From Pseudomonadota bacterium (GTDB taxonomy: Bacteria > Pseudomonadota > Gammaproteobacteria > Pseudomonadales > Moraxellaceae), in NCBI GenBank assembly GCA_021781515.1, contig JAJXWR010000018.1:1-37640 (forward strand): a stretch of 37,640 bases of DNA. The letters are read 5' to 3'. The notes under the pieces are model-generated. The model searched no databases, was not told where the DNA came from, and saw nothing but the letters and a program-made list of their open reading frames with translations. Shown here piece after piece: positions 4,708 to 30,686 of the stretch (within the stretch, counting starts at the first letter, position 1; every line of letters starts with the position of its first letter). The position numbers and the translations under genes were made by a program.

Positions 4708-4748
4708 GTGATCGGTAATAATGGATTCTTGATGAGGAGTGCATGGTC

Positions 4749-11437: not shown

Positions 11438-11780
11438 GATGGGGGTGGTGGTAGCACTGCTACTGGCTACAGGGAATACGGCATGGAATGTTTATACGGC
11501 GCAACGCAGTAAATCGACGGTGGCTGTGGTGGATCTGCAGCGATTGTTGCAGGAAGAAATTGATGCCGGGGCGAGGTTGCATCTGGAGGCGACTCAACGG
11601 CTGCAACGCGCCAGTGTGTTTAATAAAACGCTGGAACGTGCCCTGAATCAGTTACAGGCTGAAAATGCCGATGGAGTCGTTCTTGTTGCTCCGGCAGTGC
11701 TGAGTGGTGGGCGTGATTACACAGACTGGGTACGTCGACAGCTGAAAACCTTGAGTGGTGACGCCGGGGCGGCAGGATGA
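11430..11780 (+). CDS. trbI: TrbI-like type-F conjugation protein
   Basis: 116 residues with an N-terminal hydrophobic anchor (about 4-20), then VAVVDLQRLLQEE and a helical segment. This matches the TrbI-type pattern in which a short VA-(F/V)D--- motif follows the anchor. In F, trbI also lies between traC and traW, and TrbI (128 residues) influences pilus extension and retraction. ATG 11430 lies inside the end of traC, with AGGAG at 11418-11422 as ribosome binding site. The function is assigned mostly by position and general shape. Confidence 0.65.
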   Translation: MYKMGVVVALLLATGNTAWNVYTAQRSKSTVAVVDLQRLLQEEIDAGARLHLEATQRLQRASVFNKTLERALNQLQAENADGVVLVAPAVLSGGRDYTDWVRRQLKTLSGDAGAAG

Positions 11781-12283
11781 GTGGCGTAATGACGTCTGAG
11801 CAACGGCGCGTATTGAGATGGGTGGTGTGCTGCTGGGGGCTGGCGGGTGCCATTGCCATTGTGGGGCACGTTGTGGGTCGCTGGGTGTTTATTGGCATTC
11901 GTTTCAGTCCCAGTATTGCCGGGCATGTGTTTCTGGTTTTTCCCGGAGCACCGGTGCATCGCGGTGATTTGCTGGCATTTTGGCCACCCAGAACACCCTA
12001 TGCACCGCCAACGATGTGGTGGATGAAGTATGCCGTGGGCATGCCTGGGGATTTACTGCAAGTAGAGAATCGTCACCTCCGGGTGGCCGGTATCAACCGC
12101 GGTATCTGTGCCCAACGGGCGGTGCAGGATAATCATCCATTGCACTGTATGCACAGCACCCACATCCCACAGCAGCATTATTTTGTCTGGGGTTCGCATC
12201 CGAGGTCACTGGATTCTCGTTATCAGGAGATTGGTTTTGTGCAGGCTCATGCGGTTATTGGTCGTGGTATGCGTTTGTTCTAG
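11777..12283 (+). CDS. trhF: S26-family signal peptidase-like protein (TrhF/TraF type)
   Basis: 168 residues. An N-terminal membrane segment (about 15-38) is followed by the S26 fold. FSPSIAGHVFLVFPG carries the likely nucleophile Ser46 (Ser44 is the alternative), WWMKYAVGMPGD carries the general base Lys84, and GSHPRSLDSRYQEIGFV is the C-terminal conserved box. Such peptidases occur between traC and traW in SXT/R391-type and other F-like systems. The related TraF of RP4 matures, and there cyclises, the pilin. It may therefore process the pilin encoded at 4383-4667; that link is inference. It starts with an ATGA overlap and overlaps the traW start. Confidence 0.8.
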   Translation: MSGVMTSEQRRVLRWVVCCWGLAGAIAIVGHVVGRWVFIGIRFSPSIAGHVFLVFPGAPVHRGDLLAFWPPRTPYAPPTMWWMKYAVGMPGDLLQVENRHLRVAGINRGICAQRAVQDNHPLHCMHSTHIPQQHYFVWGSHPRSLDSRYQEIGFVQAHAVIGRGMRLF

Positions 12284-12866
12284 GGCGCAGGCCTGGACCG
12301 AGTTACTGGGAACTGTTGCCCCGGTGTCTACGGTTCTGGAACGGGATTTGGGGAAACAATGGCAAACCGAGGCGGCTGCCGCCTGGCAGCAGGGCCGTTC
12401 CCGGCACTGGCTACAGCGGCAAAAGGAGGTCTTGCATCAGTGGCTGGAACGGCCGGAGGGCATGAATCTGCCGACCACGACAGTGCATAACGTTTTTAGG
12501 GTAGATCCGGGCCTGCGACTGACGCAGGAGATCCGCGATCAGCGGGGCGTGCTGTGGTACCCGGCAGGAACCCGTGTTAATCCGTTGACTTATCTGCAGT
12601 ACCGCAAAGTGCTGTGTTTTATCAACGCAGATGAAGCGGCGCAATGGGAGTGGTTGCAACGTCGCTGCGCACAGCCGTTGGTTGATCGCTGGATTTTGGT
12701 GCAGGGCGCTTATATGCAGGCCAGTAATCAACATCAACATCGGTTGTATTTTGATCAATATGGCCGACTGGCACAACGCTTTGCCCTCAGATCAGTCCCC
12801 GCCCGGGTGTATCAGGTGGGTTCCAGTTGGCAGGTGGAGGAGGAGCCGGTGAATGCGGAGCCTTAA
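12249..12866 (+). CDS. traW: Type-F conjugation protein TraW
   Basis: 205 residues from ATG 12249, close to F TraW (210). The signal peptide is short (MRLLVVVCVCSRAQA, cleaved before WTE). Landmarks of the periplasmic protein are DPGLRLTQEIRDQRG, VLWYPAGTRVNPL, VLCFINADE, WILVQGAY, YFDQYGRLAQRFALRSVPA and the following RVYQ. The TraW-type C-terminal domain resembles the thioredoxin-like TrbC family. It is needed for pilus assembly with TraU and TrbC. The frame opens upstream, but the signal peptide fixes this start, which overlaps the peptidase gene by 35 nt. Confidence 0.88.
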   Translation: MRLLVVVCVCSRAQAWTELLGTVAPVSTVLERDLGKQWQTEAAAAWQQGRSRHWLQRQKEVLHQWLERPEGMNLPTTTVHNVFRVDPGLRLTQEIRDQRGVLWYPAGTRVNPLTYLQYRKVLCFINADEAAQWEWLQRRCAQPLVDRWILVQGAYMQASNQHQHRLYFDQYGRLAQRFALRSVPARVYQVGSSWQVEEEPVNAEP

Positions 12867-13869
12867 TTTTCGGTATAGGCGATGGGTGGCAAAGGCGCTG
12901 CTGGGTGTGGGGTATTGTGCCTCGGTATGGGCCGGTTGCACCGGCAAGATTCCCGATCCAGTCTCGGATTTGTGCTGGAACTGTTTTTTCCCCATAGAAA
13001 TGGGGGGAGCCACGATGGGGACGGGGCCTGACTCACCACCGAAAGCACCCGCTGTGTGTGCCTGTCCGGCACCGCCTCCGGTGTTTTTGCGACCGGGGAT
13101 CGGAATGAGCTATTGGTCACCTGACCGGGTGGCAGAAATGGTACGTACGCCCTTGTGCTCACCGACCTTAGGGGGCGTGGTGCTCGGGCACTTGCCAGTG
13201 TCTGATGGTGACGATGTCGGACGCCAGGGCAGTGGGGGCAACCGAAAATCCCAAGGGTCATTTTATCAGATGCACTGGATGGATATGCCGGTATTTGAGG
13301 AATTGGGAGTAGCGACGGCGGGAAGTCTGTGCATGAAAGATAGCGGTATCAGCAGTTTCGTCTGGCTCAGTGAACTGGATCCGTTGTGGGATGATGATCA
13401 ACTGGCCTTTGCACTGGCTCCGGAGGCCTTGCTTTTCGCTAATATTCCCGCGACGTTGGCGTGCACGGCGGATGCAGTAAAGGCTTCGGTCAGTGATTTT
13501 GGCTGGGATTCGCTGTTTTGGTGTTCAGGAGGTGAAGGCAGTGTCTATCCTTTGTCCGGGCATAAACAATATCACACGGGCGGGGTGGATACGGCCATGA
13601 ATTTAGTGCACCGCATTACTTACAGGCTGCATCGTACCGGGTTGTTATCCGATACGTCGACCGTGGCGGCCATGTGCCAGGATTTGCCGCAGCCGGTGTT
13701 GCGCAAGGGCCAATACAAGGTGCAGTTTATGTTTCCCTTGCCGGATGTATTGCAGGCGCACGGTTTTGGGGTGCCCAGTTCGTTGTTTGAAACGGGTAAG
13801 GAATACCCGGTGGCCGGTGAAGACTGGTCCATGTTGATATGGAGAAAACATTTATGTTGCGCCTTATAG
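12853..13869 (+). CDS. traU: Conjugative DNA-transfer/pilus protein TraU
   Basis: 338 residues (F TraU is 330) with a signal peptide ending near ASVWA. The mature protein is Cys-rich in the way typical of TraU: CTGKIPDP, LCWNCFFPIEMGG, CACPAPPP, then FLRPGIGMSYWSPDRVAEMVRTPLCSP, LDPLWDDDQLAF and SLFWCSGGEGSVYPLSGH. This periplasmic protein needs disulfide bonds and in F affects DNA transfer more than pilus formation. It has a strong ribosome binding site (GGAGGAGGAG at 12836-12845) and overlaps traW. Confidence 0.95.
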   Translation: MRSLNFRYRRWVAKALLGVGYCASVWAGCTGKIPDPVSDLCWNCFFPIEMGGATMGTGPDSPPKAPAVCACPAPPPVFLRPGIGMSYWSPDRVAEMVRTPLCSPTLGGVVLGHLPVSDGDDVGRQGSGGNRKSQGSFYQMHWMDMPVFEELGVATAGSLCMKDSGISSFVWLSELDPLWDDDQLAFALAPEALLFANIPATLACTADAVKASVSDFGWDSLFWCSGGEGSVYPLSGHKQYHTGGVDTAMNLVHRITYRLHRTGLLSDTSTVAAMCQDLPQPVLRKGQYKVQFMFPLPDVLQAHGFGVPSSLFETGKEYPVAGEDWSMLIWRKHLCCAL

Positions 13870-14447
13870 GGTTGGTGGGATGGTGTCTTAGTCAGGGGGT
13901 GTGGGCCGAAGACCCGGCGGTCTTGCAGGCGGCGCAGGGAGTGGATCCGGCATTGAGCGTTATGAGTGCCGATCGCCTGACACTGCCTGGGCAACCGCTG
14001 ATACGGCCTTCCCTACGTGTTGTTCCGGCGACCAGGACAGAAACTCAGGTGCAGGCAAAGCCCGAGCTATGGGTGTTGGTAAGTTTTTCCATGTCGGATG
14101 CCAGTTTAAAGAGCCTTTATCAGCAATTACGCCCACTGCAGGGGACGTTGGTGTTTCGCGGGATGCCAGCGGCCGGTCTGGCGGACATGCAGCAACGCTT
14201 AAAACGCTTGGGGATTCTTGCAGAAATTGATCCGTGGTGGTTCTCTCAGTATCAGGTGACGCAGGTGCCTGTTTTTATTCTGACGCTGCCGGTATTTCAT
14301 CGGGGCAATGAACATCCCGGTGATGCCGTTGTGCTTGCCGGACTGCTGGATGTGGAATCGGCACTGGAATACATGCAGCGCAACAGTGGACGGGCGGCGG
14401 TACAACAGGCGACTCACACACTGTTGCAGGAGTGGCCTCATGTATAG
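13854..14447 (+). CDS. trbC: Type-F conjugation protein TrbC
   Basis: 197 residues from ATG 13854 (F TrbC is 212). The signal peptide is MLRLIGLVGWCLSQGVWA. The thioredoxin-like TrbC domain shows LWVLVSFSMSDASLKSLYQQL, LVFRGMPA, a KRLGILAEIDPWWFSQY segment and QVPVFIL. It works with TraW in pilus assembly. ATG 13839 is also in frame, but 13854 is better placed (9 nt) from GGAG at 13841-13844 and leaves a clean signal peptide. It overlaps traU and traN. Confidence 0.88.
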   Translation: MLRLIGLVGWCLSQGVWAEDPAVLQAAQGVDPALSVMSADRLTLPGQPLIRPSLRVVPATRTETQVQAKPELWVLVSFSMSDASLKSLYQQLRPLQGTLVFRGMPAAGLADMQQRLKRLGILAEIDPWWFSQYQVTQVPVFILTLPVFHRGNEHPGDAVVLAGLLDVESALEYMQRNSGRAAVQQATHTLLQEWPHV

Positions 14448-15429
14448 ATTGCTGATTATGATTGTTTTTGCAGCCTTGATTGGACAAAAATCCGAGGCGC
14501 AGACATGGGATCAGGCACAGTGTAATGGGGGCAATTGCCTGCAGCAGGGGGTGATGGACGGGCAATCGACGCCGGGGCTGCAAGGCCTGGCGTCGCAAGT
14601 CAACAACCCGGCCTATCAGCCTTGCCTGGAAAATCCGGCACATCCGCTTTGTGCCGGGCAAGTGCCCGGGGCGTTTATGCCGGGGTCATTAAGCGCCAAT
14701 CCCGCACAGTGGGCGAATCAGGCGCGGAGTGGGCTGAGAAATTCTGCCGTTGCCTGGGCGACACAACCGGCCTCTCGTGCCTTAGGTGCCGATCAGGCCG
14801 TGTATCAAGGGGTGCAACAACAGGCTCAACAACTGGCGGCGCAGCAGAATCTTCCCTGTACGGGAGGTCAATGCTGGAAAAATCTGCTGCCTACCACCGT
14901 TGCCCCGGCGAAAGACCGACAGAACACGTTAACGGCGCTGGATATGTTGCAGGCCATGCAGACGCAGCGGGATCCGGCCGGACTGGCGGTCTTTCCCGGA
15001 AAATACGCCGACTGCGCCGATACCGGAACCCTCGTCGGATCCAGCAAATGCTGTTCGGGTGGCACTGGGGCTTTGCAGAGCTTCTGGCATCAGTCCTGTT
15101 CGGCGGCGGAACAACAGATTCAACAGGCGAAAAATTCCGGGAGCGCCAGCTATCTTGGCTCCTGGAGTAGTTGTGTCCGTAAAAGTCTGGGGGTGTGTTT
15201 GCGGCATGAGCAGCATTATGCATTCTGTCTCTGGCCAGGTAAATTGGCACGTCTTATTCAGGAACAAGGGCATGCACAGTGGGGTCAGGCACTTCCATGG
15301 ACCTGCGCCGGTCTGACACTCAGCCATCCGGATCAGTTGGCGCTCATTGATTTTAATAAACTTGATCTCAGCTCTTATATTCCCGCCTCGTTGTCCAGTA
15401 CCGGTACGGCGGCGCAGGTGTTGCCATGA
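14440..15429 (+). CDS. traN: Mating-pair stabilisation protein TraN, short form
   Basis: 329 residues from ATG 14440, with signal peptide MYRLLIMIVFAALIGQKSEA. TraN is a Cys-rich outer-membrane adhesin that stabilises contact with recipient cells. Typical parts are visible: the Cys pairs in CNGGNC and CTGGQC, SKCCSGGTGALQSF, and the C-terminal block VRKSLGVCLRHEQHYAF, LARLIQEQGHAQWGQ, CAGLTL and LALIDFNKLDLSSY. F TraN has 602 residues. This copy has a much shorter middle, the part that in F-like plasmids contacts recipient outer-membrane proteins. It overlaps trbC by 8 nt and ends in an ATGA overlap with traF. Confidence 0.9.
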   Translation: MYRLLIMIVFAALIGQKSEAQTWDQAQCNGGNCLQQGVMDGQSTPGLQGLASQVNNPAYQPCLENPAHPLCAGQVPGAFMPGSLSANPAQWANQARSGLRNSAVAWATQPASRALGADQAVYQGVQQQAQQLAAQQNLPCTGGQCWKNLLPTTVAPAKDRQNTLTALDMLQAMQTQRDPAGLAVFPGKYADCADTGTLVGSSKCCSGGTGALQSFWHQSCSAAEQQIQQAKNSGSASYLGSWSSCVRKSLGVCLRHEQHYAFCLWPGKLARLIQEQGHAQWGQALPWTCAGLTLSHPDQLALIDFNKLDLSSYIPASLSSTGTAAQVLP

Positions 15430-16259
15430 ACGGGCGAAAAAAAATAATGGCATGGGGACTGTGTTGTCTGTGTGCCAGCGCAGGGCAGGGGTGGGCGCAG
15501 GGAGGCTATTCCGGGGATCCTGATAGTTGGTTGTGGTACCACGAGGCACCAGTGATTCATGTTCAACCCAGGCGGGAGCCATTCAGTGCAGTACTCACTG
15601 CCCGGCAACAACTGAAGCAGATGGGGCAACTCATGGAAGAAAAAGAATCGCAGGCGATGCTGGACCCCACACCGGCGCATCTGCAGGCAGCCATCAGTGC
15701 ACGTCAGGCAGTCTTGCAGATGGCGCAACAGTATGCGGATGCCATGGAGCGTTTCGTCTGGGCGCATCCGCAGTTTGACTACAGTTTGAGCCATGCGCAA
15801 CGCAGCGATCGCTTGATGGCGGTTGCTGATCAACAAAAAACCCGAGTAGATCAGGCATTACGGCAAGCCGCTCAACAGGTGGGTCTGTTTTATGTGATGC
15901 GAAAAGATTGTCCGTACTGTCAGCGCTTCTCTCCCTTATTGCATGAATTTGCCAAGAATTTTGGATTTAAGGTCATTGCTTTCAGTCTGGATGGCGGCGG
16001 CCATCCGGATTTTCCGCACCCACTGACCGATGTTGGCTTATTGCGGCAGCATCAGATACAGCCAGAAGCGGTGCCCGCATTGTATGTGATACAACCTGGA
16101 AAAAATCAGGTAATGACCGTCGGTTTTGGTCTGTTGAATCTTATGGATTTGCGGCGACGCCTTGCAGTGGTGTTGGGCATTCCCCTGTATGACGGGACAG
16201 TGACCCACGTAATGGCACAGACACAGAACACTCAGGGAAATACCCCTTTATTACAGTGA
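15426..16259 (+). CDS. traF: Type-F pilus assembly protein TraF, with CPYC redox motif
   Basis: 277 residues with an N-terminal signal peptide (ends near GWAQG) and a C-terminal thioredoxin-like domain. FYVMRKDCPYCQRFSPLL carries a CPYC motif (Cys162, Cys165), and a cis-Pro-like VPALYVI segment follows. TraF of F has the thioredoxin fold but lacks the CxxC pair, relying on separate oxidoreductases such as TrbB. Here no TrbB/DsbC gene is seen in the operon, so this protein may itself form or isomerise disulfides in the Cys-rich TraU, TraN and TraH. It has ATGA/GTGA overlaps with traN and traH. Confidence 0.92.
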   Translation: MNGRKKIMAWGLCCLCASAGQGWAQGGYSGDPDSWLWYHEAPVIHVQPRREPFSAVLTARQQLKQMGQLMEEKESQAMLDPTPAHLQAAISARQAVLQMAQQYADAMERFVWAHPQFDYSLSHAQRSDRLMAVADQQKTRVDQALRQAAQQVGLFYVMRKDCPYCQRFSPLLHEFAKNFGFKVIAFSLDGGGHPDFPHPLTDVGLLRQHQIQPEAVPALYVIQPGKNQVMTVGFGLLNLMDLRRRLAVVLGIPLYDGTVTHVMAQTQNTQGNTPLLQ

Positions 16260-17785
16260 GAACCGCAAAAGTGAACCATAAAGCTGCAGTACAGTGTCTG
16301 TTTCTGATGTTGTTGTTGATACTGGCCCGAGGCAGTGACGCCGGGCTGCAGGCTGAACTCAACCAATGGATGGGGGCGGGAGGCTACAGTAATTACACCA
16401 ATGCCGGGGTTTATCACAATCAGTACGGTGGCTACTGGACGGGCGGTGCCTTGTCGGTACGTACACCCAATCGCCAGGTGGGGCAGTTGTTCAGCTACAC
16501 ACCGCCGCATTTTTCCGGGGGATGCAGTGGAATTGATATGGAACTGGGTGGTTTTAATTTTGTCAATAAAGATGAAATTGTTCAGCAATTACGCGCTATT
16601 GGACAAAATGCCAAAATGCTGGCCTATAACCTGGCGATCAAGTATGTTTCGGCTTTACTGGCCGATACCATGGACTGGGTCAAGGATAAGGCCGATTTTC
16701 TGAATCAGTTACAGATGGATTCCTGTACGGCGGCACAAAATGTGCTGAGTGCCGGGTTTTCAGCCGTGGGAATGCCGAGTTATCAACAAATCAACGATGC
16801 AGAAGACCGGGAAGTCTGCATTGATCGACAGGTGGTCAATGGTGGCATGACCCGGGATCAGGCACAGGCCAGTTGTGGCCGAGGAGGCAGTCGTCCGGGG
16901 GTTCTGGCCAGCGATCCTGAACATTTTACCCAGGGTAATCTTGCCTGGTATGTATTGATGCAATCCCCTGTATTTCAGAATGATCCGAAATTAGCAGAGT
17001 GGATCATGAATCTGACGGGGACTATCGTCTTGAACCGTGATCCTGCACTGGGGAGTGATGCCGCCGCAGAAGCTGCCTATTATCCGGGCATGTTGTATAC
17101 CGCCTGTGAAACCAGTCACAACTGCCTGAATGCAGACGGCAAAGCCTTATTGAATGCCCTGATCGGAACACCTTCTGCGGGGTCGGTCCCTGTTGCTCTC
17201 TGGAGTTGCCAGAATCTGCGTGCCAGTGCAGACGGATGTCAACTATTGTCAGCAGCACCGGTCCAGGTCAGTCTGCAAGCGTTGGCACAACATAATCTGG
17301 CACAGGTGTTGACCACGGAATTAGGCAGTATCATGCAGAAACTGTCCAATCCAAAAAGCACACTTAATAATCAGGAAAAAGCCTTGATTGAACAGTCGGC
17401 GATGCCCCTTTATCGCTACGTTCTGGCGTCTCAAACATTTTTTCACAGTCAGGACCCCGATCCCCAGGTGAAAAACTATTTACGCATGTTGGCTCAGCAT
17501 ATTGTGGCGAGCAATATAGAAGCATTGATTGGTCAGGCACGTCTGGTTTTTGGCCTCGGAAAAGTCAATCCTGCGGAGGATGCCAAGGTAAAAATGTACC
17601 TGGATCATCTGGAACATCTGGGAGCGGCGGTAGCCTCCTATGAAGTAGATGCGCAAACACAAATGCAGGCACAACTCAACCTGATGCATGATGCCCAGTT
17701 GTATGAACAGGCGCTGGTGGGACGCATCAGTAGTAATTTCATGGCCGCTGCATTATTTAATCATGGGGGTGCGAGTGGACTTTAG
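16256..17785 (+). CDS. traH: Type-F pilus assembly protein TraH
   Basis: 509 residues (F TraH 458), starting at GTG 16256 in a GTGA overlap with the traF stop. The signal peptide ends near GSDAG. TraH landmarks are SVRTPNRQVGQLFSYTPPHF, GCSGIDMELGGFNFVN and the C-terminal LGAAVASYEVDAQ region. The segment around 109-120 (NAKMLAYNLAIK) and the Cys residues at 148 and onwards fit the family. TraH is periplasmic and acts with TraF, TraW, TraU and TrbC in pilus assembly. The start of traG lies inside its final codons. Confidence 0.93.
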   Translation: MRTAKVNHKAAVQCLFLMLLLILARGSDAGLQAELNQWMGAGGYSNYTNAGVYHNQYGGYWTGGALSVRTPNRQVGQLFSYTPPHFSGGCSGIDMELGGFNFVNKDEIVQQLRAIGQNAKMLAYNLAIKYVSALLADTMDWVKDKADFLNQLQMDSCTAAQNVLSAGFSAVGMPSYQQINDAEDREVCIDRQVVNGGMTRDQAQASCGRGGSRPGVLASDPEHFTQGNLAWYVLMQSPVFQNDPKLAEWIMNLTGTIVLNRDPALGSDAAAEAAYYPGMLYTACETSHNCLNADGKALLNALIGTPSAGSVPVALWSCQNLRASADGCQLLSAAPVQVSLQALAQHNLAQVLTTELGSIMQKLSNPKSTLNNQEKALIEQSAMPLYRYVLASQTFFHSQDPDPQVKNYLRMLAQHIVASNIEALIGQARLVFGLGKVNPAEDAKVKMYLDHLEHLGAAVASYEVDAQTQMQAQLNLMHDAQLYEQALVGRISSNFMAAALFNHGGASGL

Positions 17786-20189
17786 TATTTTCTGTTTTGG
17801 TGATGGTGATTTTTTAACCAGTCTGTTTCGTGCGGTGGCCTCCATGACAGGCAGTGGGGATTTTCGCTTTGCCTTGATGCTGGTGGTGAGCTATGCCTTT
17901 TTGACTTTGCTCATGATGGGAATGTTGCGTGGCCAACTGCTCGATTTACGCTGGTTTTTTGGAGTCATGCTGATTTATAGCCTGTGTTTGTTACCCAGGG
18001 TAAACGTGAGTGTCGAGGATCGGCTACAAGGGGGCTGGGGTGGGGCACCGGTAGTGCATGTGGTGGGCAATGTGCCTATAGGGCTGGCATTTATCGCCAG
18101 TACCAGCAGTAAACTGGGAGACTGGTTGACAGAGACACTGGAAACTGTACTGAGTTTACCAGGGGGGTTGAACTATCTGGACAATGGGCCACTTTTTGCC
18201 AGTTCCGTGGTCTCCTCCATCAACCAGTTTCAGATCGCTAATCCGGATACGGCCTATGGACTGAACAATTTCTGGCATAACTGTGCTTTTTACGACATGG
18301 AACTGGGATTTTATAGTATGCAGGATCTGGCCGATGCCAGTGACCTGGAGGATTTTTTTCGTACCCGGTCTGCCGGGAATCGAGGGTTTGATTACGTGGA
18401 TACCCAAGGACAACATCAGATTGTTGACTGTAACAAAGCGTTCAGTGGGTATCTGGATCAGGACATTCAACTGGCAGTAACGGCCGGGCTTGGGGTACTG
18501 CCCTGGCAACAACAGGCAGTGGAAACCACGAAAGTCATCAGTACAGCGGCCAGTGCGTTGCCGATTGCTTTTCAGTATTTGTCGGGTCTGGCTCTTAGTG
18601 GGTCGCAAGCCCTGACCCAGGCGGCCATGATTAACAGTTTTTCTAATGGGTTACAGGGGTTTTCGGCAGAGGCCAATGCCTCGGCAGCAGTGACCGGTTA
18701 TGCACAGGCTGTTGCCGAGCAGCAACGCAGTATTGATTATGGTGTGCTGAGTAAAATTTCTGCAAAAACATTGCCGGTATTGCGTGATTTAATTGAAGGT
18801 TTTATTGATTGCCTGTTTCCGGTAGTGGCGATCTGGAGTCTGTTGCCAGGGGGGTATCGGGCACTGGGTAATTATTTTCGGGCACAGGTGTGGATTGCCC
18901 TCTGGCCACCGGTGTATTCCGTATTAAATTATGCCGTTACTTTTTTTTCGGCGATTGCCTCCCAAAAAGCCCTGCAAGTGTGCGCTGCCGGATACAACTG
19001 CGTCCCCTCCTATACCTTGGCGACCTTGCACGGATTTCAGCAGGAACTGCACTTGCATGCGACCATCGCCGGATTTTTGATGACCTCAATTCCCATGATT
19101 TCCTGGTTAATCGTCAGCCAGTCTGCTGCCATGCTCTCTGCCGTAGCCGGCCGGGTCATGGATGGTTATGCGCAGCCGGCGGCCCAAGCGGCGCATGCGC
19201 TGGCTACGGGCAATATCAGTCAGGGAACTTTGCAACTGGATAATATTCAAGCGTGGCATCAAAACAGTGCACCCGTCAACCAACAGGGATTTTTCAGTAC
19301 GGATTCTGGAAATTTCACCGTCCGCAGCACCGCGTCGGGGGCCGTGGCGCAACAACAATTGTCGCAACTGGCCATTGGTAATCAATGGGTTGACTCGATT
19401 GACCGATCCTACAGCCAGGCGCATGAACTGGCCAAAGCCCAGGTAGCACGGACTGAACAAGATTATTTGCAGAGTCAACAAAAACTGTATAGTCTGTTGA
19501 CTTCGACGGCGGATGCGGTTGACCGAAGTACTGCACACCACCAAGGTCATAGTACCACTAGAGATTCTGCTACAGAAACCATGCAGCACCACATGGACAA
19601 TGCACTGCGTGGTTTTTCCAAAAATGCCACGCATTCAGAGGATTTCAGCCATAATTTTCGCGTATCAGGTCAGTTTGGTCTGAATTTTTCCGCAGAGAAT
19701 GCCTCGAACCTGTCAGCAGAGGGATTGTCCTTCAAAGCCGGCTTAATGTATGACGCCGTCGCAAAAAATTCGGATCTGACACAGTCACAGCATCTGGATA
19801 ATTTTGTGCACAGTGATGAATATGCGAATGCCATCAAAGCCTCGGAACATGATCTCAGCACCCGCATTGATGAAACTGCCAGCAGTACCCTGCATCGGCA
19901 ATTGCATGAAGTACAGGCTCAGCAGCAACAGGTCGATAAAGAACAGACGCAATATACCGAGGCGGTGTCCAATGAACAGAAAACAGCGCAGCGTTGGCAG
20001 CAAGTACAGTCTCATCATGAGGAAATTCGCTACGCACTGGGCAATGCTTTACTGGAACAGATGCAGCAACAGGGAGTTGACTGGCAAAAAGGCCTGGATG
20101 ACCTCTCACGTCAGCACGCCAGTGTCGAGGCAGAGTCCATTCGCCATTGGTTGAATCAATTACTCGATCAGCAAAAAAATCAGCCCTGA
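17763..20189 (+). CDS. traG: Mating-pair formation protein TraG
   Basis: 808 residues from ATG 17763 (F TraG is 938). The N-terminal part is a polytopic inner-membrane domain: segments near 35-60, 68-90, 105-125 and 340-480, including LIEGFIDCLFPVVAIWSLLPGG. The C-terminal 330 residues are a polar, Gln/Ser/His-rich, coiled-coil-prone periplasmic region (HEVQAQQQQVDKEQTQY) as in TraG, whose C-terminus in F takes part in mating-pair stabilisation and entry exclusion. It starts within traH. It is the last gene of the operon: traS, traT, traD and traI do not follow, and its stop overlaps the convergent plsC stop by 10 nt. Confidence 0.9.
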   Translation: MGVRVDFSIFCFGDGDFLTSLFRAVASMTGSGDFRFALMLVVSYAFLTLLMMGMLRGQLLDLRWFFGVMLIYSLCLLPRVNVSVEDRLQGGWGGAPVVHVVGNVPIGLAFIASTSSKLGDWLTETLETVLSLPGGLNYLDNGPLFASSVVSSINQFQIANPDTAYGLNNFWHNCAFYDMELGFYSMQDLADASDLEDFFRTRSAGNRGFDYVDTQGQHQIVDCNKAFSGYLDQDIQLAVTAGLGVLPWQQQAVETTKVISTAASALPIAFQYLSGLALSGSQALTQAAMINSFSNGLQGFSAEANASAAVTGYAQAVAEQQRSIDYGVLSKISAKTLPVLRDLIEGFIDCLFPVVAIWSLLPGGYRALGNYFRAQVWIALWPPVYSVLNYAVTFFSAIASQKALQVCAAGYNCVPSYTLATLHGFQQELHLHATIAGFLMTSIPMISWLIVSQSAAMLSAVAGRVMDGYAQPAAQAAHALATGNISQGTLQLDNIQAWHQNSAPVNQQGFFSTDSGNFTVRSTASGAVAQQQLSQLAIGNQWVDSIDRSYSQAHELAKAQVARTEQDYLQSQQKLYSLLTSTADAVDRSTAHHQGHSTTRDSATETMQHHMDNALRGFSKNATHSEDFSHNFRVSGQFGLNFSAENASNLSAEGLSFKAGLMYDAVAKNSDLTQSQHLDNFVHSDEYANAIKASEHDLSTRIDETASSTLHRQLHEVQAQQQQVDKEQTQYTEAVSNEQKTAQRWQQVQSHHEEIRYALGNALLEQMQQQGVDWQKGLDDLSRQHASVEAESIRHWLNQLLDQQKNQP

Positions 20190-20914
20190 CCGAGTTCCCT
20201 GCGAATGGCTGTCTCGGCCTGAGCCACCAGTTGTTCTGCCGTGGCCGCCGGCAGCGCCGGCAGAACGGTCCAGCGAATCTGGAAAATTGTTCCTAGTGGA
20301 AAGTGGCGCAGACTGCCCATGCGCCAGGCACCGTCAATGGCGACGGGAATAACAACGGCATCCGGTGCGTTTTTCAGGAGCATTTTGACGCCAGCGGTTG
20401 CAAAGAGTTGTAACTGACCGTCACGTGCCCGGGTTCCCTCGGGAAAAATGACCGCCGCACGGGTTTCCTGTTGGATAAGTTTGCCAAGGCGGGCAATCTC
20501 CCTTAAAGATTGTCGGGGATCCTGACGATCAATCAAGGCGGCACCGCTGTGGCGTAAATTATAGGAAATGCTCGGCAAACCACGTCCCAGTTCTATTTTG
20601 GATACAAATACCGGATCCTGCTGACGAAAAAGCCACGAAATGCCAGAAATATCAATTTGATTCTGATGATTGGCAACAATAATCAACGGCTTGTCGGTGG
20701 GAGGCTTCTCTTTATAAATCAAGACGGGGCGAATGCCCAGCAGCCAGATGCAATGCAGAAGACACCAGTTCAGTGCCGATGCCATACGTCGCCGGGCCGA
20801 TTCCCCACGGCTATATAGGGCTGCCCACTGTAAAACATGAAAAACCAGTAATAACCCGGCCCACACCGTCAGGTAAAGCGGAGAAAGCAGCAATCCTGTG
20901 CAATAACGTAGCAT
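20180..20914 (-). CDS. plsC: 1-acyl-sn-glycerol-3-phosphate acyltransferase
   Basis: 244 residues, the size of E. coli PlsC (245). It transfers an acyl group to lysophosphatidic acid to make phosphatidic acid, the precursor of membrane phospholipids. Motifs are ANHQNQIDI (HX4D, His83/Asp88), SKIELGRGLPSISYNLRHSGAALIDR and FPEGTRARDG (157-166), with VVIPVAIDGAW near the end. An N-terminal membrane segment (about 7-28) anchors it to the inner membrane. It is convergent with traG and marks return to ordinary chromosomal genes. No strong Shine-Dalgarno is visible; AGGA lies rather far (about 13 nt) from the ATG. Confidence 0.93.
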   Translation of the reverse strand: MLRYCTGLLLSPLYLTVWAGLLLVFHVLQWAALYSRGESARRRMASALNWCLLHCIWLLGIRPVLIYKEKPPTDKPLIIVANHQNQIDISGISWLFRQQDPVFVSKIELGRGLPSISYNLRHSGAALIDRQDPRQSLREIARLGKLIQQETRAAVIFPEGTRARDGQLQLFATAGVKMLLKNAPDAVVIPVAIDGAWRMGSLRHFPLGTIFQIRWTVLPALPAATAEQLVAQAETAIRRELGQG

Positions 20915-21173: not shown

Positions 21174-21194
21174 AAAAAGGGCGGTTGCCCGCCC
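21174..21194 (-). terminator. Intrinsic terminator of small RNA copy 1
   Basis: Perfect 6-bp GC stem (GGGCGG 21179-21184 with CCGCCC 21189-21194, four-base loop) followed on the minus strand by a U-tract (plus-strand AAAAA 21174-21178). The same stem and loop end small RNA copy 2. Confidence 0.85.
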
Positions 21195-21335
21195 CGTTTA
21201 CTGGAGTGTCAGCATCCTGCCAACTTTCCGTAACGCCTCCTTGCCCTCATCCTTAAGTATCTCGCCATCCCGGCGATTTATCATCATCCCTGCATTCTAC
21301 AGTCCTTTGCATTTCCTGTCAGCATCCTGCCAACA
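21174..21335 (-). ncRNA. CsrB/RsmY/RsmZ-type CsrA-sequestering small RNA, copy 1
   Basis: On the minus strand an RNA of about 162 nt is predicted, from an extended -10 promoter (21341-21368) to an intrinsic terminator (21174-21194). It has no convincing open frame but carries nine GGA motifs (random expectation about 2-3). Several have the AGGA form, and the 5' end GGCAGGATGCTGACAGGA could place one between short complementary arms. That is the signature of RNAs that bind many CsrA/RsmA dimers. A perfect GacA-type box lies about 180 nt upstream of the start (21511-21532). The 5' end and terminator closely resemble copy 2. The exact 5' end is a prediction. It is a family-level call from architecture, as primary sequence in this class is not conserved. 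Confidence 0.75.
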
Positions 21336-21340
21336 CGTAT

Positions 21341-21368
21341 AGATTACCATAACAGGGCGTTAATGCAA
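21341..21368 (-). promoter_or_regulatory. Predicted promoter of small RNA copy 1
   Basis: On the minus strand, TTGCAT (21363-21368), a 16-nt spacer and TAATCT (21341-21346), preceded by TG one base away (extended -10, TGGTAATCT). Transcription is expected to start near 21334. Copy 2 has the same spacing and extended -10 layout. Confidence 0.5.
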
Positions 21369-21510
21369 GGGGGTTGCTTTGGACATGTTGTGCATGAGTT
21401 GATAAACAAAAACAAGAGTGCCAGATAACATTTCTTTAGAATCATTGAGTTAATGTGATTTATTCACTGATTTTCCTGAATAGGCCGCTGGCTGGCAGAT
21501 TGCTTATATC

Positions 21511-21532
21511 CGTGTAAGCAAATGCTTACACG
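21511..21532 (-). promoter_or_regulatory. GacA/LetA/UvrY box, perfect palindrome
   Basis: TGTAAGCAAATGCTTACA at 21513-21530 matches the GacA upstream activating consensus TGTAAG-N6-CTTACA at every fixed position. The palindrome extends to 10-bp arms (21511-21520 and 21523-21532). It lies about 180-195 bp upstream of the predicted start of small RNA copy 1; a long linker between this box and the promoter is known for Pseudomonas rsmZ. It implies control by a BarA/UvrY (GacS/GacA) two-component system. Confidence 0.8.
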
Positions 21533-21762
21533 AAATAAACGGACAAAAGATGAAAACGTGGGGTTGGTGTTTGAGAAGTATACGGCAAACCAGATAATTA
21601 CATAAAAAACCATGAATAATAATTGGAGTAATTTTGGTAAAGTTATTCGATAGGTAATAAACGGCAATAAACAGATGAATTAAATGTTTATTGATGATAA
21701 TCAATAAATTGCATTTATAAGTAGAGGGTATTGTTTGGCGGCACGGTGGGATATCAGCAAAT

Positions 21763-21783
21763 AAAAAGGGCGGTTGCCCGCCC
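21763..21783 (-). terminator. Intrinsic terminator of small RNA copy 2
   Basis: GGGCGG (21768-21773) pairs with CCGCCC (21778-21783) around a four-base loop. On the minus strand it is followed by a U-tract (plus-strand AAAAA 21763-21767). Stem and loop are identical to the terminator of copy 1. Confidence 0.85.
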
Positions 21784-21953
21784 TGTTTCAGAAATGAACA
21801 AATCCTTTATGTGCATACTGATGTTGCCTCCCTGCACTCCTCCTTAAGCTCAAGCCAGTCCGCTGTGCTCAATCAATTTCCTGAAGTCCTAATAAATTTT
21901 GCCGCTACCGATTTGCCAATCCATTGCAATCCCTGTCAGCTCCCTGCCGACAT
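21763..21953 (-). ncRNA. CsrB/RsmY/RsmZ-type CsrA-sequestering small RNA, copy 2
   Basis: Minus-strand RNA of about 191 nt between an extended -10 promoter (21959-21986) and a terminator (21763-21783). It has ten GGA motifs, including AAGGAGGAG and several AGGGA forms, and no coding potential that I can support. Its 5' part (GGCAGGGAGCTGACAGGGA) parallels copy 1, and a CTTAAGGA motif in the middle is also shared, so the two are diverged duplicates. A partial GacA box is found at 22111-22128. Its likely role is to titrate CsrA/RsmA redundantly with copy 1, as RsmY and RsmZ do. The 5' end is predicted, not measured. Confidence 0.72.
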
Positions 21954-21958
21954 CAATG

Positions 21959-21986
21959 ATTCTATCAGAGCATTATGATAAATCAA
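21959..21986 (-). promoter_or_regulatory. Predicted promoter of small RNA copy 2
   Basis: Minus strand TTGATT (21981-21986), 16-nt spacer, TAGAAT (21959-21964; five of six match to TATAAT) with the extended element TG one base upstream. Start expected near 21952. Confidence 0.6.
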
Positions 21987-22110: not shown

Positions 22111-22128
22111 TATCAGAAAATGCTTACA
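22111..22128 (-). promoter_or_regulatory. Partial GacA-type box upstream of small RNA copy 2
   Basis: TATCAG-AAAATG-CTTACA: one half-site is perfect, and the other matches four of six positions of TGTAAG. It lies about 160-175 bp upstream of the predicted start of copy 2, similar to the box-promoter distance of copy 1, which supports a real site. Confidence 0.5.
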
Positions 22129-22198: not shown

Positions 22199-24055
22199 CT
22201 AGTGATCAGGTTCAGGGTCTGCTGCCGACGATGTACTGAACAGTAGATGCTGAGCTTTAATCTGTTTATGCAGTTCAATTTGTTGTTGCAGTAGTTGGGT
22301 TTGTCGTTGAACATTCGATTCTTCCTGCAAAGTGCGTGTCAGTATTTTTTTTTGTTCTTCGAGTTCAAGTAACTGCAGGCGGGCATTGAGAATTCTCAGG
22401 GTTTGCTCGGGATCCGGTTCCGACCCGGGGGATTGCTGATCCGCCAGATGCGCCAGGATTTCTCCGTTGGGGGTTTGATGCCATAACGCCAACAGGGCAG
22501 GCATTTGCAGGTCGGGATAGTGCTGCAGCATTTCAATGACTTCAGCCAGTAATACAAGACGCGGCTGAGCAGGATCTGTGAGGCGGGGAAGTTGAAGACG
22601 ACTGGCCAGTTGCGGGTTATGCAGAAGAAAACGTAAGGCATGGTCAATCAAGGTGTTTATGCCAGTGCGAGGGGTGAAAGTGCTTCTGGAGTTGATTCGG
22701 GGGGGCGTTCCGGAAGGGAGGCCAGACGCAGTCATCGGATTTTTTTTGTTGGCTGTGAAAGATATTCCGGTTGAACGATGGGGGAGTTCAAGGCCCGTCA
22801 GGCCGCTGACGGATTCGAGGCGTTGGGTGAGCAGATCTCGGTAAATGCCGGCAGGCATCTCGGCCAATAAGTGACGGATATTTTGCACCAGGGTTACTTT
22901 GTCTTCGAGAATCTCCAGGTTCAGTCCACTACTTTGTTGCCTGAAGATAAAATCAGAGAGACTTTCACTGTGCTCCAGTCGTTCAGCAAAACGTGCTGGG
23001 CCTTCACGACGTACCAGTGAATCCGGGTCTTCGTTGTCGGGCAGAAACACAAAACTGATTTTTTTACCTTCCTGTAATACTGGAATACAGGTTAATACGG
23101 CCTTCCAGGCGGCTTTTCTGCCCGCCGCATCGCCATCAAAACAAAAACAGATCCGATCGACGAGACGGAACATTTTCAGCAGATGTTGACTACTGGTGGC
23201 GGTTCCCAAGGTAGCAACGGCAAACCGGAGGTTATGTTGGGCCAGAGCAATGACATCCAAATACCCTTCCACCACGAGCAGCATCTCCAGTTTGCCGGCC
23301 TGCCGGGCTTCGTAGAGGCCATAAAGCTCCTGGCTTTTATAGAAAATAATGGATTCAGGAGAATTGAGGTATTTGGGTTTGTCCTTATTCAGTACGCGGC
23401 CGCCGAAGGCAATGACTTTTCCTTGCAGGTTGCGGATAGGAAATATTATCCGGTCGCGCAGTGCATCATAATGCCCTTCGCGATCTTTACGTTCGACCAG
23501 TAAGCCGGCAGCGACGAGACTGTCTCTGAATGCCGGGGGAAATTTTGCTGCGGCAAGGAAGTCCCATCCCGGTGGTGCATAACCTAAATGAAATTCTTTG
23601 GCGATCTGGCCAGTGACACCCCGATCCTGCAGGTATTTTATGGCGTTGTGCCGTGTCGGGTGATTTTTAAGCTGCTGGCGGTAGAGTTCATCAACCCAGG
23701 TGAGTGCGGTTATTAACGCCTGACTCTGTTCAAGGAGTGAACTTTGTTCCGGTGATTGTTCCGGAAGTACCAGTCCGGCACCCTGAGCCAGTTGCCGCAG
23801 TGCGTCCATAAAGCCGAGGTGCTGATGGTTCATGAGAAAACTGAGTGCATTGCCCGAGGCACCACAGCCAAAACAGTAGTAAAACTGTTTATCAGGATTG
23901 ACCGTAAAAGAAGGGGTTTTTTCCTGATGAAACGGGCAACAGGCGGTATAGTTTTTTCCGGTACGACGCAGCTTGACCTGACGATCCACCAGAATGACCA
24001 AATCAGTACGTTCAATCACCTGATTTATAAAGGACGAATCAATCCGTTGGGACAT
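22199..24055 (-). CDS. dnaG: DNA primase DnaG
   Basis: 618 residues from ATG 24055 (E. coli 581). It synthesises RNA primers at the replication fork. The N-terminal zinc-binding domain is clear (Cys40, His43, Cys61, Cys64 in ACCPFHQEKTPSF and YYCFGCGASG). The RNA polymerase core follows (GFGYAPP-like segment, FGGRVLNKDKPKYLNSPE), then the Toprim motifs LLVVEGYLDVIAL and CFDGDAAGRKAA. The C-terminal helicase-binding domain is longer and diverged. The frame extends five codons to a GTG at 24070, but ATG 24055 matches the family N-terminus. It is the last gene of the rpsU-yqeY-dnaG operon; rpoD, which often follows, is absent. Confidence 0.97.
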   Translation of the reverse strand: MSQRIDSSFINQVIERTDLVILVDRQVKLRRTGKNYTACCPFHQEKTPSFTVNPDKQFYYCFGCGASGNALSFLMNHQHLGFMDALRQLAQGAGLVLPEQSPEQSSLLEQSQALITALTWVDELYRQQLKNHPTRHNAIKYLQDRGVTGQIAKEFHLGYAPPGWDFLAAAKFPPAFRDSLVAAGLLVERKDREGHYDALRDRIIFPIRNLQGKVIAFGGRVLNKDKPKYLNSPESIIFYKSQELYGLYEARQAGKLEMLLVVEGYLDVIALAQHNLRFAVATLGTATSSQHLLKMFRLVDRICFCFDGDAAGRKAAWKAVLTCIPVLQEGKKISFVFLPDNEDPDSLVRREGPARFAERLEHSESLSDFIFRQQSSGLNLEILEDKVTLVQNIRHLLAEMPAGIYRDLLTQRLESVSGLTGLELPHRSTGISFTANKKNPMTASGLPSGTPPRINSRSTFTPRTGINTLIDHALRFLLHNPQLASRLQLPRLTDPAQPRLVLLAEVIEMLQHYPDLQMPALLALWHQTPNGEILAHLADQQSPGSEPDPEQTLRILNARLQLLELEEQKKILTRTLQEESNVQRQTQLLQQQIELHKQIKAQHLLFSTSSAADPEPDH

Positions 24056-24186
24056 ACAGCGAATTTCCACCCCCGAGGCGTTTCTGATTCAGCGAACACC
24101 TCAGAGACTGACTTCAGGCACAAGCACGATTCATTGGACGGGTAAAAATCTGTTCAATAAAACATTCATGCCTGAGGTCGCATTGC

Positions 24187-27581: not shown

Positions 27582-30500
27582 ATGAAAGCGACACGAATTT
27601 TTATAGATCGGCCGGTGGCTACAACGTTGCTGATGTTGGCGATGGCGTTGTGCGGTCTGCTGGCGCTGCGTTTTTTACCCGTATCGGCGTTGCCGGATGT
27701 GGATTTTCCGACGATTCAGGTCGTTACTCTGTACCCGGGAGCCAGTCCTGATGTGATGGCCTCCAGTGTGACGGCGCCGCTAGAGAAACAGTTTGGTCAG
27801 ATGCCCGGACTGGACCAGATGAGTTCCACCAGTTCAGCCGGGGCGTCGATTATTGTTTTACGCTTTGTCTTGGGCCTGGGACTGGACGTTGCAGAGCAGG
27901 AAGTTCAGGAAGGCATCAATATGGCGGCACTGTTTTTGCCGACGGATTTGCCGATGCCCCCGGTGTATAACAAAGTCAATCCGGCGGATACACCGGTATT
28001 GACGTTAGCCGTTACCGCCACTCATTTACCGTTACCCGTGCTTGAAGATATGGTGGATACTCGGCTGGCGGCCCCATTGTCCCAGGTGAAGGGGGTGGGA
28101 CTGGTCAGTCTGCAGGGAGGTCAGCGGCCTGCAGTACGCTTGCAGGTGGATGCGGCGGCGTTAGCGGCACGGGGGCTAGGTTTTGAGGACGTACGCACTT
28201 TTATTCAGAATGCCAATGTCAATACGCCTAAAGGATTAATGGACGGTGTGGCGCAGGCGACGACACTGGATGTTAATGATCAACTGGCATCAGCGGCAGA
28301 ATATCGGGATCTGGTGCTGGCTTATCAGCACGGTGCACCTATCCGTCTGGCGGATGTGGCGCATCCGGTGGATGGTGCGGAAAACGTGCATTTGGCCGCC
28401 TGGGCGGGCAATCATCCGGCGTTGTTGTTATCGATCCAACGGCAGCCGGGTGCCAATGTACTGGCAACCGTCAATGCGCTGAATACCAAACTCCGCCAGT
28501 TGCACACAAACTTGCCAGAGGGTGTGCAGGTGCGGGTTATTTCCGACAGGACGGATTCGATACGTGCGTCGGTGCATGATGTCAGTGCGGAACTGCTTTT
28601 TGCTATTGTGCTGGTGGTGCTGGTTATTTTTCTTTTTTTGCGCAGTCTTCCAGCGACGGTGATTCCTGCTGTGGCGGTGCCTTTATCGCTATTGGGAACC
28701 GTGGCTGTCATGTACCTGTCAGGAATGTCAATCAATAATCTGACCTTGATGGCGATGACCGTGGCGACGGGGTTTGTGGTCGATGATGCGATTGTCATGG
28801 TAGAAAATATTGCTAGGTTGTGTGAAACCGGCTTGCCGCCTTTTCAGGCGGCGTTGCGCGGCGCTCGGCAAATGGGTTTTACCATTGTGTCGCTGACCGT
28901 ATCGTTGATTGCGGTTCTGATTCCCTTACTCTTTATGCAGGATGTTATTGGTCGGTTATTTCGGGAATTTTCTCTGACCTTGGTGATAGCCATCGTATTG
29001 TCCGCACTGATCTCACTCAGCCTCACCCCGATGTTGAGTGCCAGATTGTTAAAAACGGTGCCCAGAGTGCCGACCGCAGAAAGAGAAGCCGGGTTCTGGC
29101 TGCAGCTGTTGCGGGGGTATGAACGTCTGCTGATCCAGGCACTGGATCACCGGTATGAAGTGTTGGGGTTGCTTGGATTGAGTGTACTGGTGACGGCGGC
29201 ACTCTATGTCGATGTCAGCAAAGGTTTTTTCCCTGAGCAGGATGTGGGCGAGCTGACGGCGATGACCCAAGCCGATGCGAGTATTTCTTTTGCCGGGATG
29301 GCGGCGTTGCAGGAGCAACTGGTGGCGAAGCTGCAGAAAAATCCTTCAGTGGCACATATCGCCTCTACCGTGGGGATTGATGGCACCAACAGCGTATTGA
29401 GTCAGGGACGCCTGCTGATTACCCTGACGGACAAGGCGGATCGGCCTGCAATGCAAGTGGTTGAACATCAATTGCTGGATGCAGCAAAATCCGTGAACGG
29501 CATGCATCTGTTGCTCAAACCAGTGCAGGATGTATCGGTGGATGATGAGTTTAGCGCTTCGGCGTACCGGGTCTCCCTGTCGGAACTGGATGCTGATGAA
29601 CTGCATCAGGCAGCTGATGCGTTGTTACAGACAATGCAAGAGGATCCTCTCTTTACCGCCGTACATGCAGAACACAATCAGCGCATGCGGGCGTTGTTTA
29701 TCGAGGTGGATCGAGACACCGCCTCTCGCCTTGGGGTCAGCATGGCCGATGTGGACAACCTGTTGTACGATGCTTTTGGACAACGCCTGATTTCCACTAT
29801 CTTTACCCAGGCCAATCAGTACCGGGTGGTTCTGGAGCTAAAACCCACGGTATACCAGACACTGAACCCGGTACTGCAATCAGGCGGGCCGAGTCTGCAC
29901 GATCTTTATTTACAGACGAATCAGGGCATGATCCGATTGGATACACTGGCACACTGGCGGACACAATGGGTTGATGAGTCCATTGCACACGTGGGACAGT
30001 TTCCGGCAGTCACTCTGGGATTCAATCTAGCCACTGGAGTCTCGCTGGATCAGGCGATGCGGCATTTGCAGGGCGCTATTGCAGCCCGGCATTTTCCATT
30101 GCGTCTGAATGTTGCCTATCAGGGAGCCTTGCGGGCTTTTGTGGCGGCACTCAGTAATCAGCTCTGGCTGTTACTGGCGGCGGTCATTACCATGTACATT
30201 GTTCTGGGTGTGCTTTACGAAAGTTTTATCCATCCCTTAACCATATTATCGACCTTGCCGTCGGCGGCTATGGGAGCATTGGGGATATTGCTGATCACTC
30301 ACCAGGCACTGGATGTGCTGGGTATCATCGGCATTGTATTATTGATCGGTATCGTCAAAAAAAATGCCATTATGATGATCGATTTTGCGTTGGATGCAGA
30401 ACGTCATCGGCATTTAAGTCCTCGGGCCGCCATTCATGAAGCGTGCCTGTTGCGGTTTCGGCCGATTCTCATGACGACATTGTGCGCACTGGTCGGGGCT

Positions 30501-30686
30501 TTGCCGTTGCTCTGGGGACAAAGTATGGGGGCTGAGTTGCGTCAGCCGCTGGGATTGACTTTGGTGGGTGGCTTGCTGGTCAGTCAGTTGCTAACGCTGT
30601 TTACGACGCCGGTACTCTATTTGACGTTGGCGGAATGGGCACATCGTTCAACAGACGATACCGGTCAGGGATCAACGGTCTTATGA
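27582..30686 (+). CDS. mdtB: RND efflux pump permease MdtB
   Basis: 1034 residues, a full-length RND (AcrB-type) inner-membrane proton/drug antiporter. Strong likeness to E. coli MdtB is evident: FIDRPVATTLLMLA, PVSALPDVDFPTIQVVTLYP, GASPDVMASSVTAPLEKQFG, and EEYRDLVLAYQ-type blocks. The proton-relay pair Asp401-Asp402 in TGFVVDDAIVMVEN and the lysine in IVKKNAIMMIDF are kept. MdtB normally works as a heterotrimer with MdtC, encoded next. ATG 27582 has a weak ribosome binding site. Its stop overlaps the mdtC start (ATGA). Confidence 0.95.
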   Translation: MKATRIFIDRPVATTLLMLAMALCGLLALRFLPVSALPDVDFPTIQVVTLYPGASPDVMASSVTAPLEKQFGQMPGLDQMSSTSSAGASIIVLRFVLGLGLDVAEQEVQEGINMAALFLPTDLPMPPVYNKVNPADTPVLTLAVTATHLPLPVLEDMVDTRLAAPLSQVKGVGLVSLQGGQRPAVRLQVDAAALAARGLGFEDVRTFIQNANVNTPKGLMDGVAQATTLDVNDQLASAAEYRDLVLAYQHGAPIRLADVAHPVDGAENVHLAAWAGNHPALLLSIQRQPGANVLATVNALNTKLRQLHTNLPEGVQVRVISDRTDSIRASVHDVSAELLFAIVLVVLVIFLFLRSLPATVIPAVAVPLSLLGTVAVMYLSGMSINNLTLMAMTVATGFVVDDAIVMVENIARLCETGLPPFQAALRGARQMGFTIVSLTVSLIAVLIPLLFMQDVIGRLFREFSLTLVIAIVLSALISLSLTPMLSARLLKTVPRVPTAEREAGFWLQLLRGYERLLIQALDHRYEVLGLLGLSVLVTAALYVDVSKGFFPEQDVGELTAMTQADASISFAGMAALQEQLVAKLQKNPSVAHIASTVGIDGTNSVLSQGRLLITLTDKADRPAMQVVEHQLLDAAKSVNGMHLLLKPVQDVSVDDEFSASAYRVSLSELDADELHQAADALLQTMQEDPLFTAVHAEHNQRMRALFIEVDRDTASRLGVSMADVDNLLYDAFGQRLISTIFTQANQYRVVLELKPTVYQTLNPVLQSGGPSLHDLYLQTNQGMIRLDTLAHWRTQWVDESIAHVGQFPAVTLGFNLATGVSLDQAMRHLQGAIAARHFPLRLNVAYQGALRAFVAALSNQLWLLLAAVITMYIVLGVLYESFIHPLTILSTLPSAAMGALGILLITHQALDVLGIIGIVLLIGIVKKNAIMMIDFALDAERHRHLSPRAAIHEACLLRFRPILMTTLCALVGALPLLWGQSMGAELRQPLGLTLVGGLLVSQLLTLFTTPVLYLTLAEWAHRSTDDTGQGSTVL

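Follow-up and report, generated by a model that had tools for sequence, protein, structure and literature searches.

A probable tandem pair of RsmZ-type CsrA-sequestering small RNAs between dnaG and a plsC-like gene in a Moraxellaceae genome

Two GGA-rich units between dnaG and a plsC-like gene

Two units on the minus strand of the window, the whole stretch of 37,640 nucleotides that was analysed, are very likely (probability about 0.9) GacA-activated, CsrA-sequestering small RNAs of the RsmZ type, and would form an old, diverging tandem pair. Decoy RNAs that sequester CsrA are a well-known kind of regulator. The preliminary description gave the units as 191 and 162 nt long with ten and nine GGA motifs; re-measured, they come to 189 and 161 nt with 10 and 9 GGA. 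In the order of transcription expected on the minus strand, the features of the locus are as follows.

22199..24070, minus strand: dnaG (DNA primase), upstream neighbour (TIGR01391, 439 bits, above the cut-off)
22111..22128, minus strand: GacA-type site, degenerate, TGTAAGCATTTTCTGATA, 2 mismatches, centre 168 nt before sRNA1
21959..21986, minus strand: sRNA1 promoter, TTGATT-N16-(TGA)TAGAAT, extended -10
21763..21951, minus strand: sRNA1, candidate 189-nt GGA-rich RNA with 10 GGA, upstream member of the pair
21767..21784, minus strand: sRNA1 intrinsic terminator stem, followed by a T-run (terminator scan)
21513..21530, minus strand: GacA/UvrY-type upstream activating site, perfect, TGTAAGCATTTGCTTACA, centre 187 nt before sRNA2
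21341..21368, minus strand: sRNA2 promoter, TTGCAT-N16-(TGG)TAATCT, extended -10 (direct reading)
21174..21334, minus strand: sRNA2, candidate 161-nt GGA-rich RNA with 9 GGA, downstream member of the pair
21178..21195, minus strand: sRNA2 intrinsic terminator stem, followed by a T-run (terminator scan)
20180..20914, minus strand: plsC-like 1-acylglycerol-3-phosphate acyltransferase gene, downstream neighbour (TIGR00530, 64.4 bits, below the cut-off of 102.95)

Judged by sequence, each unit is short and non-coding, with its own promoter and intrinsic terminator. The terminator stem core GGGCGGGCAACCGCCC and the T-run behind it are common to sRNA1 and sRNA2, and in both promoters a spacer of 16 nt was read, with TGN preceding the -10. 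The identical terminator stems, the like promoter layout and the related 5' ends, all of which had been pointed out before, were found again, the 5' ends matching as previously quoted. The promoter scan listed the promoter of sRNA1 and not that of sRNA2, and its total of 6 hits is close to the 4.2 that shuffles gave on average.

GacA-type sites and the Csr/Gac genes of the genome

The strongest evidence is the perfect GacA-type site upstream of sRNA2, which was absent from the preliminary description. For TGTAAG-N6-CTTACA, which we take to be the consensus of the GacA/UvrY site, the draft genome of 2.79 Mb has two exact matches, TGTAAGCATTTGCTTACA among them, and the reversed control gave none at zero mismatches. 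When one mismatch was allowed, there were 2 places for the pattern and 3 for the reversed control in the draft genome. In the whole window the only matches with up to two mismatches were the sites of sRNA1 and sRNA2, and with up to three mismatches 6 were counted against 10.6 expected by chance, that is, fewer. The pattern as such is therefore not enriched, and it is the position and conservation of the sites, not their number, that argue for them. A site with at most two mismatches was present at -168 to -190 in seven of eight upstream regions, two of them from the window (perfect for sRNA2, two mismatches for sRNA1) and five from homologues in related genomes, where it lies at -180 to -190. 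The eighth region, ahead of the first-position unit (G002a) of genome G002, contained no recognisable GacA site. The spacer between site and promoter is just 32-48% identical between genera and 42-58% within genus g5. The Pseudomonas rsmY and rsmZ sites given in the available part of PMC4353343, TGTAAGCATTCTCTTACA and TGTAAGCATTCGCTTACT, each differ from the perfect window site at 2 of 18 bases.

The genes required for such a pathway were identified by homology, so that CsrA, GacA/UvrY and GacS/BarA are all found in one genome. The lack of a csrA gene, which the preliminary description had named as a result that would count against its reading, was not encountered: one csrA was found, encoding a protein near-identical to solved CsrA proteins over residues 1-57. 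The GacA/UvrY homologue shares 53% identity with E. coli UvrY, as against 31% for the next hit, and its gene lies directly upstream of uvrC, and a BarA/GacS-like kinase was found as a BarA homologue aligned over residues 6-892. In genome G021, a GacA-like site with one mismatch was noticed by eye upstream of the apparent gacA (L111; G021:C50:25509), possibly reflecting autoregulation or chance.

From the sequence we infer transcription, GacA dependence, CsrA binding and the release of CsrA targets in the following manner. The BarA/GacS-type kinase would phosphorylate GacA, which, to judge from the site and its position, would bind the palindrome about 170-190 nt upstream. Each RNA would then be made from its extended -10 promoter and end at its own terminator, and its exposed GGA hairpins would bind several CsrA dimers, freeing the mRNAs targeted by CsrA. 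The downstream RNA would act with a perfect site and conserved hairpins, and the upstream one with a weakened site and altered hairpins.

Homologues, predicted folding and the relation of the two copies

A DNA search of 58 genomes matched seven including the genome itself, with homologues in G002, which belongs to the same genus as the window genome, and in G004, G006, G021 and G031. The match in G045 (L010) was confined to the spacer that separates the two RNAs and was discarded as a chance hit, and a DNA search of phage records gave no match. The genus was represented by a third genome, G001, whose assembly contains neither dnaG nor the RNAs. Alignment of the seven RNAs gave 60 invariant columns, which fall, among other places, in the terminator, in the GGA core and in the hairpin at the 5' end that has GGA in its loop. 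For a structure of 24 pairs, which is the consensus of this same alignment, 95.2% of cells were paired and 5 pairs showed two-sided changes; each of these values was equalled in 2 of 500 shuffles. Further pair types in the alignment were not above shuffles (116/500). A model, R1, was built from the seven RNAs, and a second, R2, from 13 sequences (those seven and six of genus g13).

In the predicted fold of sRNA2, the hairpin GUUGGC-AGGAU-GCUGAC at the 5' end, found again near the 3' end, and the middle hairpin CGCC-GGGAU-GGCG carry GGA in their loops. An intact CGCC-GGGAU-GGCG and the 3' GGA hairpin, both present in homologues, are missing from sRNA1. The folding energies of the two RNAs, computed for stretches with ends within one base of theirs, had z-scores of -1.90 and -2.14, a gain of some two standard deviations over shuffles. 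Mean unpaired probability of GGA was 0.83 for sRNA2 and 0.68 for sRNA1, and exceeded the mean of dinucleotide shuffles in all seven RNAs (the two of the window and the five homologues); the observed accessibility was matched by 8 of 200 shuffles for sRNA1, 1 of 200 for sRNA2 and 0-6 of 200 for the homologues. Minimum-energy hairpin loops held 4 of the 9 GGA of sRNA2 and only 2 of the 10 of sRNA1. Both RNAs have several GGA, many of them exposed in predicted loops or single strands, and burial of the motifs in stems, an objection considered in the preliminary description, was not what folding gave, as most GGA are predicted to be unpaired.

The state of sRNA1 raises the question of whether both copies work. 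It is conceivable, though on balance unlikely, that sRNA2 is the only working CsrA sponge and that sRNA1, a copy in decay, persists by chance, as would fit the loss of its central and 3' GGA hairpins, the two mismatches in its GacA site and the even further altered first-position unit of G002. However, a promoter, a terminator and the GGA hairpin at the 5' end are retained in sRNA1, its 10 GGA are more accessible than in shuffles, and its identity to the five homologues remains 55-63%. Under the preferred reading, that both units are sponge RNAs, the weakened site and altered hairpins suggest that sRNA1 is probably a weaker or differently timed copy.

The two RNAs are adjacent copies on the same strand, each with a promoter, a GacA site (degenerate in copy 1) and a terminator. 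They are 62% identical with 428 bp between them, and their global alignment had a z-score of 11.6 against mononucleotide shuffles. Between sRNA2 and the second RNA of G002 identity rises to 74%. The first-position unit of G002, which follows dnaG, has little similarity left: R1 gave it 16.9 bits, R2 25.4 bits compared with 25.2 for a reverse-strand match at the second RNA, and the match to Rfam clan CL00106 was at 29.1 bits. In trees of the eight RNAs, sRNA1 (W1) grouped with G002a (0.76, 0.86, 72%) and sRNA2 (W2) with the second RNA, G002b (0.78, 0.885, 48%), a support too weak for firm dating of the duplication. Since G002 also has a drifted first-position unit, the duplication probably predates the split of the window genome and G002, the first copy having drifted in both. 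The pair is probably an old, diverging tandem duplication. The origin by duplication proposed in the preliminary description was supported for the tandem pair and corrected in that the event looks old and sRNA1 is the more altered copy.

Tandem duplicated Rsm RNAs are already published, and the window pair is a fresh, unannotated example. According to the accessible part of PMC7911923, rsmX-1 and rsmX-2 of Pseudomonas brassicacearum are tandem duplicates of about 110 nt and 75% identity; expression of rsmX-2 is 8-fold lower, which its authors suggest may be explained by a few mutations in the GacA site. Judged from that part of the source, the two cases are alike in having tandem Rsm RNA copies, one with a mutated GacA site, and differ in that those are of the RsmX type and 75% identical, whereas the window pair is RsmZ-like, 62% identical and 428 bp apart. 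The pair adds a case of duplicated sponge RNAs in which the activator site of one copy has drifted.

Class assignment was approached with Rfam, as the preliminary description had proposed; no family reached its cut-off in the whole window. At a lax threshold the best match of sRNA2 was CsrB (RF00018) at 20.2 bits (E 0.0031), the cut-off being 71, and sRNA1 had no match of clan CL00106 even at E <=10. PrrB_RsmZ (RF00166, cut-off 44) was not among the matches listed for the window. In all five homologue loci the best Rfam match was in CL00106, always below cut-off (26.8-33.6 bits): CsrB in three (29.9-33.2 bits) and PrrB_RsmZ in two (26.8-33.6 bits, under 44). R1 gave 143.2 bits for sRNA1 and 154.3 for sRNA2, both training sequences; the window RNAs were part of the input to R1 and to R2, so that what these models score in the window follows from how they were made.

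The R1 search of the family matched 12 of 99 genomes in 15 rows, the genomes being the six of the training set and six of the nine sampled from genus g13; rows L054 and L055 were judged false by eye. All six g13 RNAs adjoin, by eye, an FdxA-type ferredoxin ORF, and the available part of PMC4353343 places Pseudomonas rsmZ next to an FdxA-type ferredoxin gene. Five of the six have a variant palindrome (e.g. TGTGAGATATATCGCACA) at -166 to -183, with 3-4 mismatches from the consensus, and only one of the six loci gave a clan match in Rfam at E <=0.1 (23.4 bits). The R2 search of the order matched 26 of 145 genomes with 27 new loci, of which 19 were given to Rfam; three of these scored 86-101 bits as PrrB_RsmZ, and all three belong to family f21 of the same order and have a GacA site at -176 to -202. 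On visual inspection, loci L077, L085 and L073 seem genuine too. Many R2 rows at 21-37 bits had low GGA counts and look like other sequences with a similar terminator, and were set aside.

Like RsmZ/PrrB of Pseudomonas (RF00166), the window RNAs have GGA hairpins, a GC-rich terminator and a GacA site, in RsmZ about 180-200 nt upstream, and R2, which includes them, recovers the three Rfam RsmZ loci. Unlike it, they are longer (161-189 nt against a model of 133 positions), lie between dnaG and plsC and fall below the Rfam cut-off. With CsrB/RsmB (RF00018) they share the class of mechanism, and CsrB is the best sub-threshold match of sRNA2 and of three homologue loci, but they are much shorter than its model of 356 positions and far under its cut-off of 71.

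The number of GGA motifs was assessed separately. sRNA1 and sRNA2 have the top two GGA densities on the minus strand of the window, and some stretches of the plus strand are about as dense. When the intergenic strand was simulated 2000 times with a first-order Markov model, 13 simulations had a 165-nt stretch with at least nine GGA. Markov simulations with the RNAs' own composition reached the two RNAs' counts in 272 and 926 of 5000 cases, and dinucleotide shuffles in 4 and 34 of 200. GGA counts alone are thus moderately unusual, and less striking against the RNAs' own composition. It is therefore how the motifs are arranged and conserved that makes the case for sponges, rather than how many there are. 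Counts that are not extreme, and the lack of an Rfam call at cut-off, would also suit Hfq-type base-pairing small RNAs or fragments of 3'UTRs or leaders, with GGA purine-rich or Shine-Dalgarno-like by chance. This explanation is nevertheless very improbable, as conserved hairpin loops hold GGA across homologues whereas the upstream spacer diverges, the GacA-type site is at a near-fixed distance, and there is a link to the Rfam RsmZ loci. That the units code for small proteins can hardly be the case: short ORFs occur (e.g. 21198-21287 minus, 29 aa; 21754-21837 minus, 27 aa), but they are unlike between the two units, and length changes among homologues, by eye, are not in threes. The CsrA-sponge reading put forward in the preliminary description is supported by csrA, the predicted-unpaired GGA, the perfect GacA site, the GacA/BarA pair and the homologous RNAs.

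Related units in the family and the surroundings of the locus

Exact GacA sites were found in 9 of 11 chosen genomes at 12 places, and the reversed control gave none. By eye, a GGA-rich unit follows at 10 of the 12. Four of these units are the RsmZ-type ones of the window and of G031 and the RsmZ and RsmY of G217; the other six, also judged by eye, are compact (L099, L100, L101, L103, L104 and L106, from genera g9, g6, g3, g10 and g8). None of the six compact units was listed by Rfam at E <=0.05; in L105, Rfam gave RsmY at 92.7 bits. These results suggest unrecognised sponge RNAs across the family, the compact ones by eye, and the exact GacA site offers a simple handle to locate CsrA antagonists in this bacterial family. 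In a pattern scan of named genomes, a Ruegeria contig, one of six contigs, was dismissed.

The two remaining places were L098 (genus g15), with few GGA, and the second exact site of the window's own genome (C101:8296-8313; L122, 1490-1521). The latter was considered as a third sponge gene and rejected because it lies in the middle of a 14-pair stem or inverted repeat, a scan of the stretch behind it gave no terminator, and the downstream GGA precede a 130-aa ORF, as in a GGA-rich leader. Unfiltered, R2 found nothing at this site, the sole match in the locus (4.3 bits) being about 600 nt off. Against the rejection, a crude count of at most 6 GGA per 130 nt downstream is equal to that at some accepted sites.

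An RsmY-type partner was looked for at sites with at most one mismatch in 8 genomes; in G000 (the window genome) and G001 the pattern yielded no more places than its reversed control. Immediately behind GacA-type sites, compact GGA-rich units resembling RsmY were observed at L119 (G031:C24), L101 (G004:C137) and L108 (G019:C274), and by eye these would be a second sponge type in sister genera. After such sites no RsmY-like unit was seen in G000, G001, G002, G006 and G021. Since G006 and G021 are among these, such a lack is not confined to the genus of the window genome, and it may result from drifted sites or draft assemblies. As a tentative joint reading, to which we give somewhat less than even odds, the usual pair of an RsmZ-type and an RsmY-type RNA could have been replaced in this uncultured genus by an RsmZ-type tandem whose GacA sites are graded, so that one decoy would be strong and the other weak, or one early and the other late, with GacA-driven sponges unseen by Rfam in other genera of the family. 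Those other genera may be related to Psychrobacter and Moraxella, as the family is probably Moraxellaceae and the window genome probably that of an uncultured relative of Acinetobacter. The draft genome yielded no 16S gene, and among 8 genomes G093 (genus g15) alone reached the cut-off of the AdeK model, which NCBI names after a pump of Acinetobacter.

Csr RNAs of Acinetobacter ADP1 were reportedly predicted by Kulkarni in 2006. The accessible part of PMC5568370 lists computationally predicted CsrA-regulating small RNAs of this strain at ACIAD0018/0019 and ACIAD2750/2751 (Table 2). As far as that part of the source goes, these are likewise computational predictions, probably from the same family as the window genome, at loci that differ from dnaG-plsC, the comparison being one of locus. 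A drawn model in the available part of PMC12442408 includes a CsrB-like RNA credited to Kulkarni 2006. No named Csr RNA was found in the accessible part of a review of A. baumannii regulation (PMC5295007), and in a term search of the text available for a paper on A. baumannii CsrA (PMC8567240) the terms sRNA, small RNA, RsmX, CsrB and GacA were all absent. In the accessible portions of the Acinetobacter and Moraxellaceae literature only computational predictions of Csr RNAs were found, and an experimental case may exist in subscription papers. Reading of the raw sequence can reveal regulatory RNAs missed by protein-centred annotation and by Rfam cut-offs.

On the plus strand, positions 4739-20189 of the window hold an F-type conjugation cluster, with TraE, TrbI-like, TraC, TraU, TraH and TraG among the ORFs scanned. 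The small-RNA locus is thus next to this cluster, the final ORF of which shares 10 bases with the end of the plsC-like gene. A second plus-strand region, 27582-35139, contains an MdtB/MuxB-like RND efflux permease (27582-30686), another ORF of about that size (30635-33733) and a NodT-type outer membrane channel (33730-35139). At the end of the window (35930-37438) lie a YhgA-like Transposase_31/DUF4351 protein on the plus strand and an IS200-like transposase on the minus strand.
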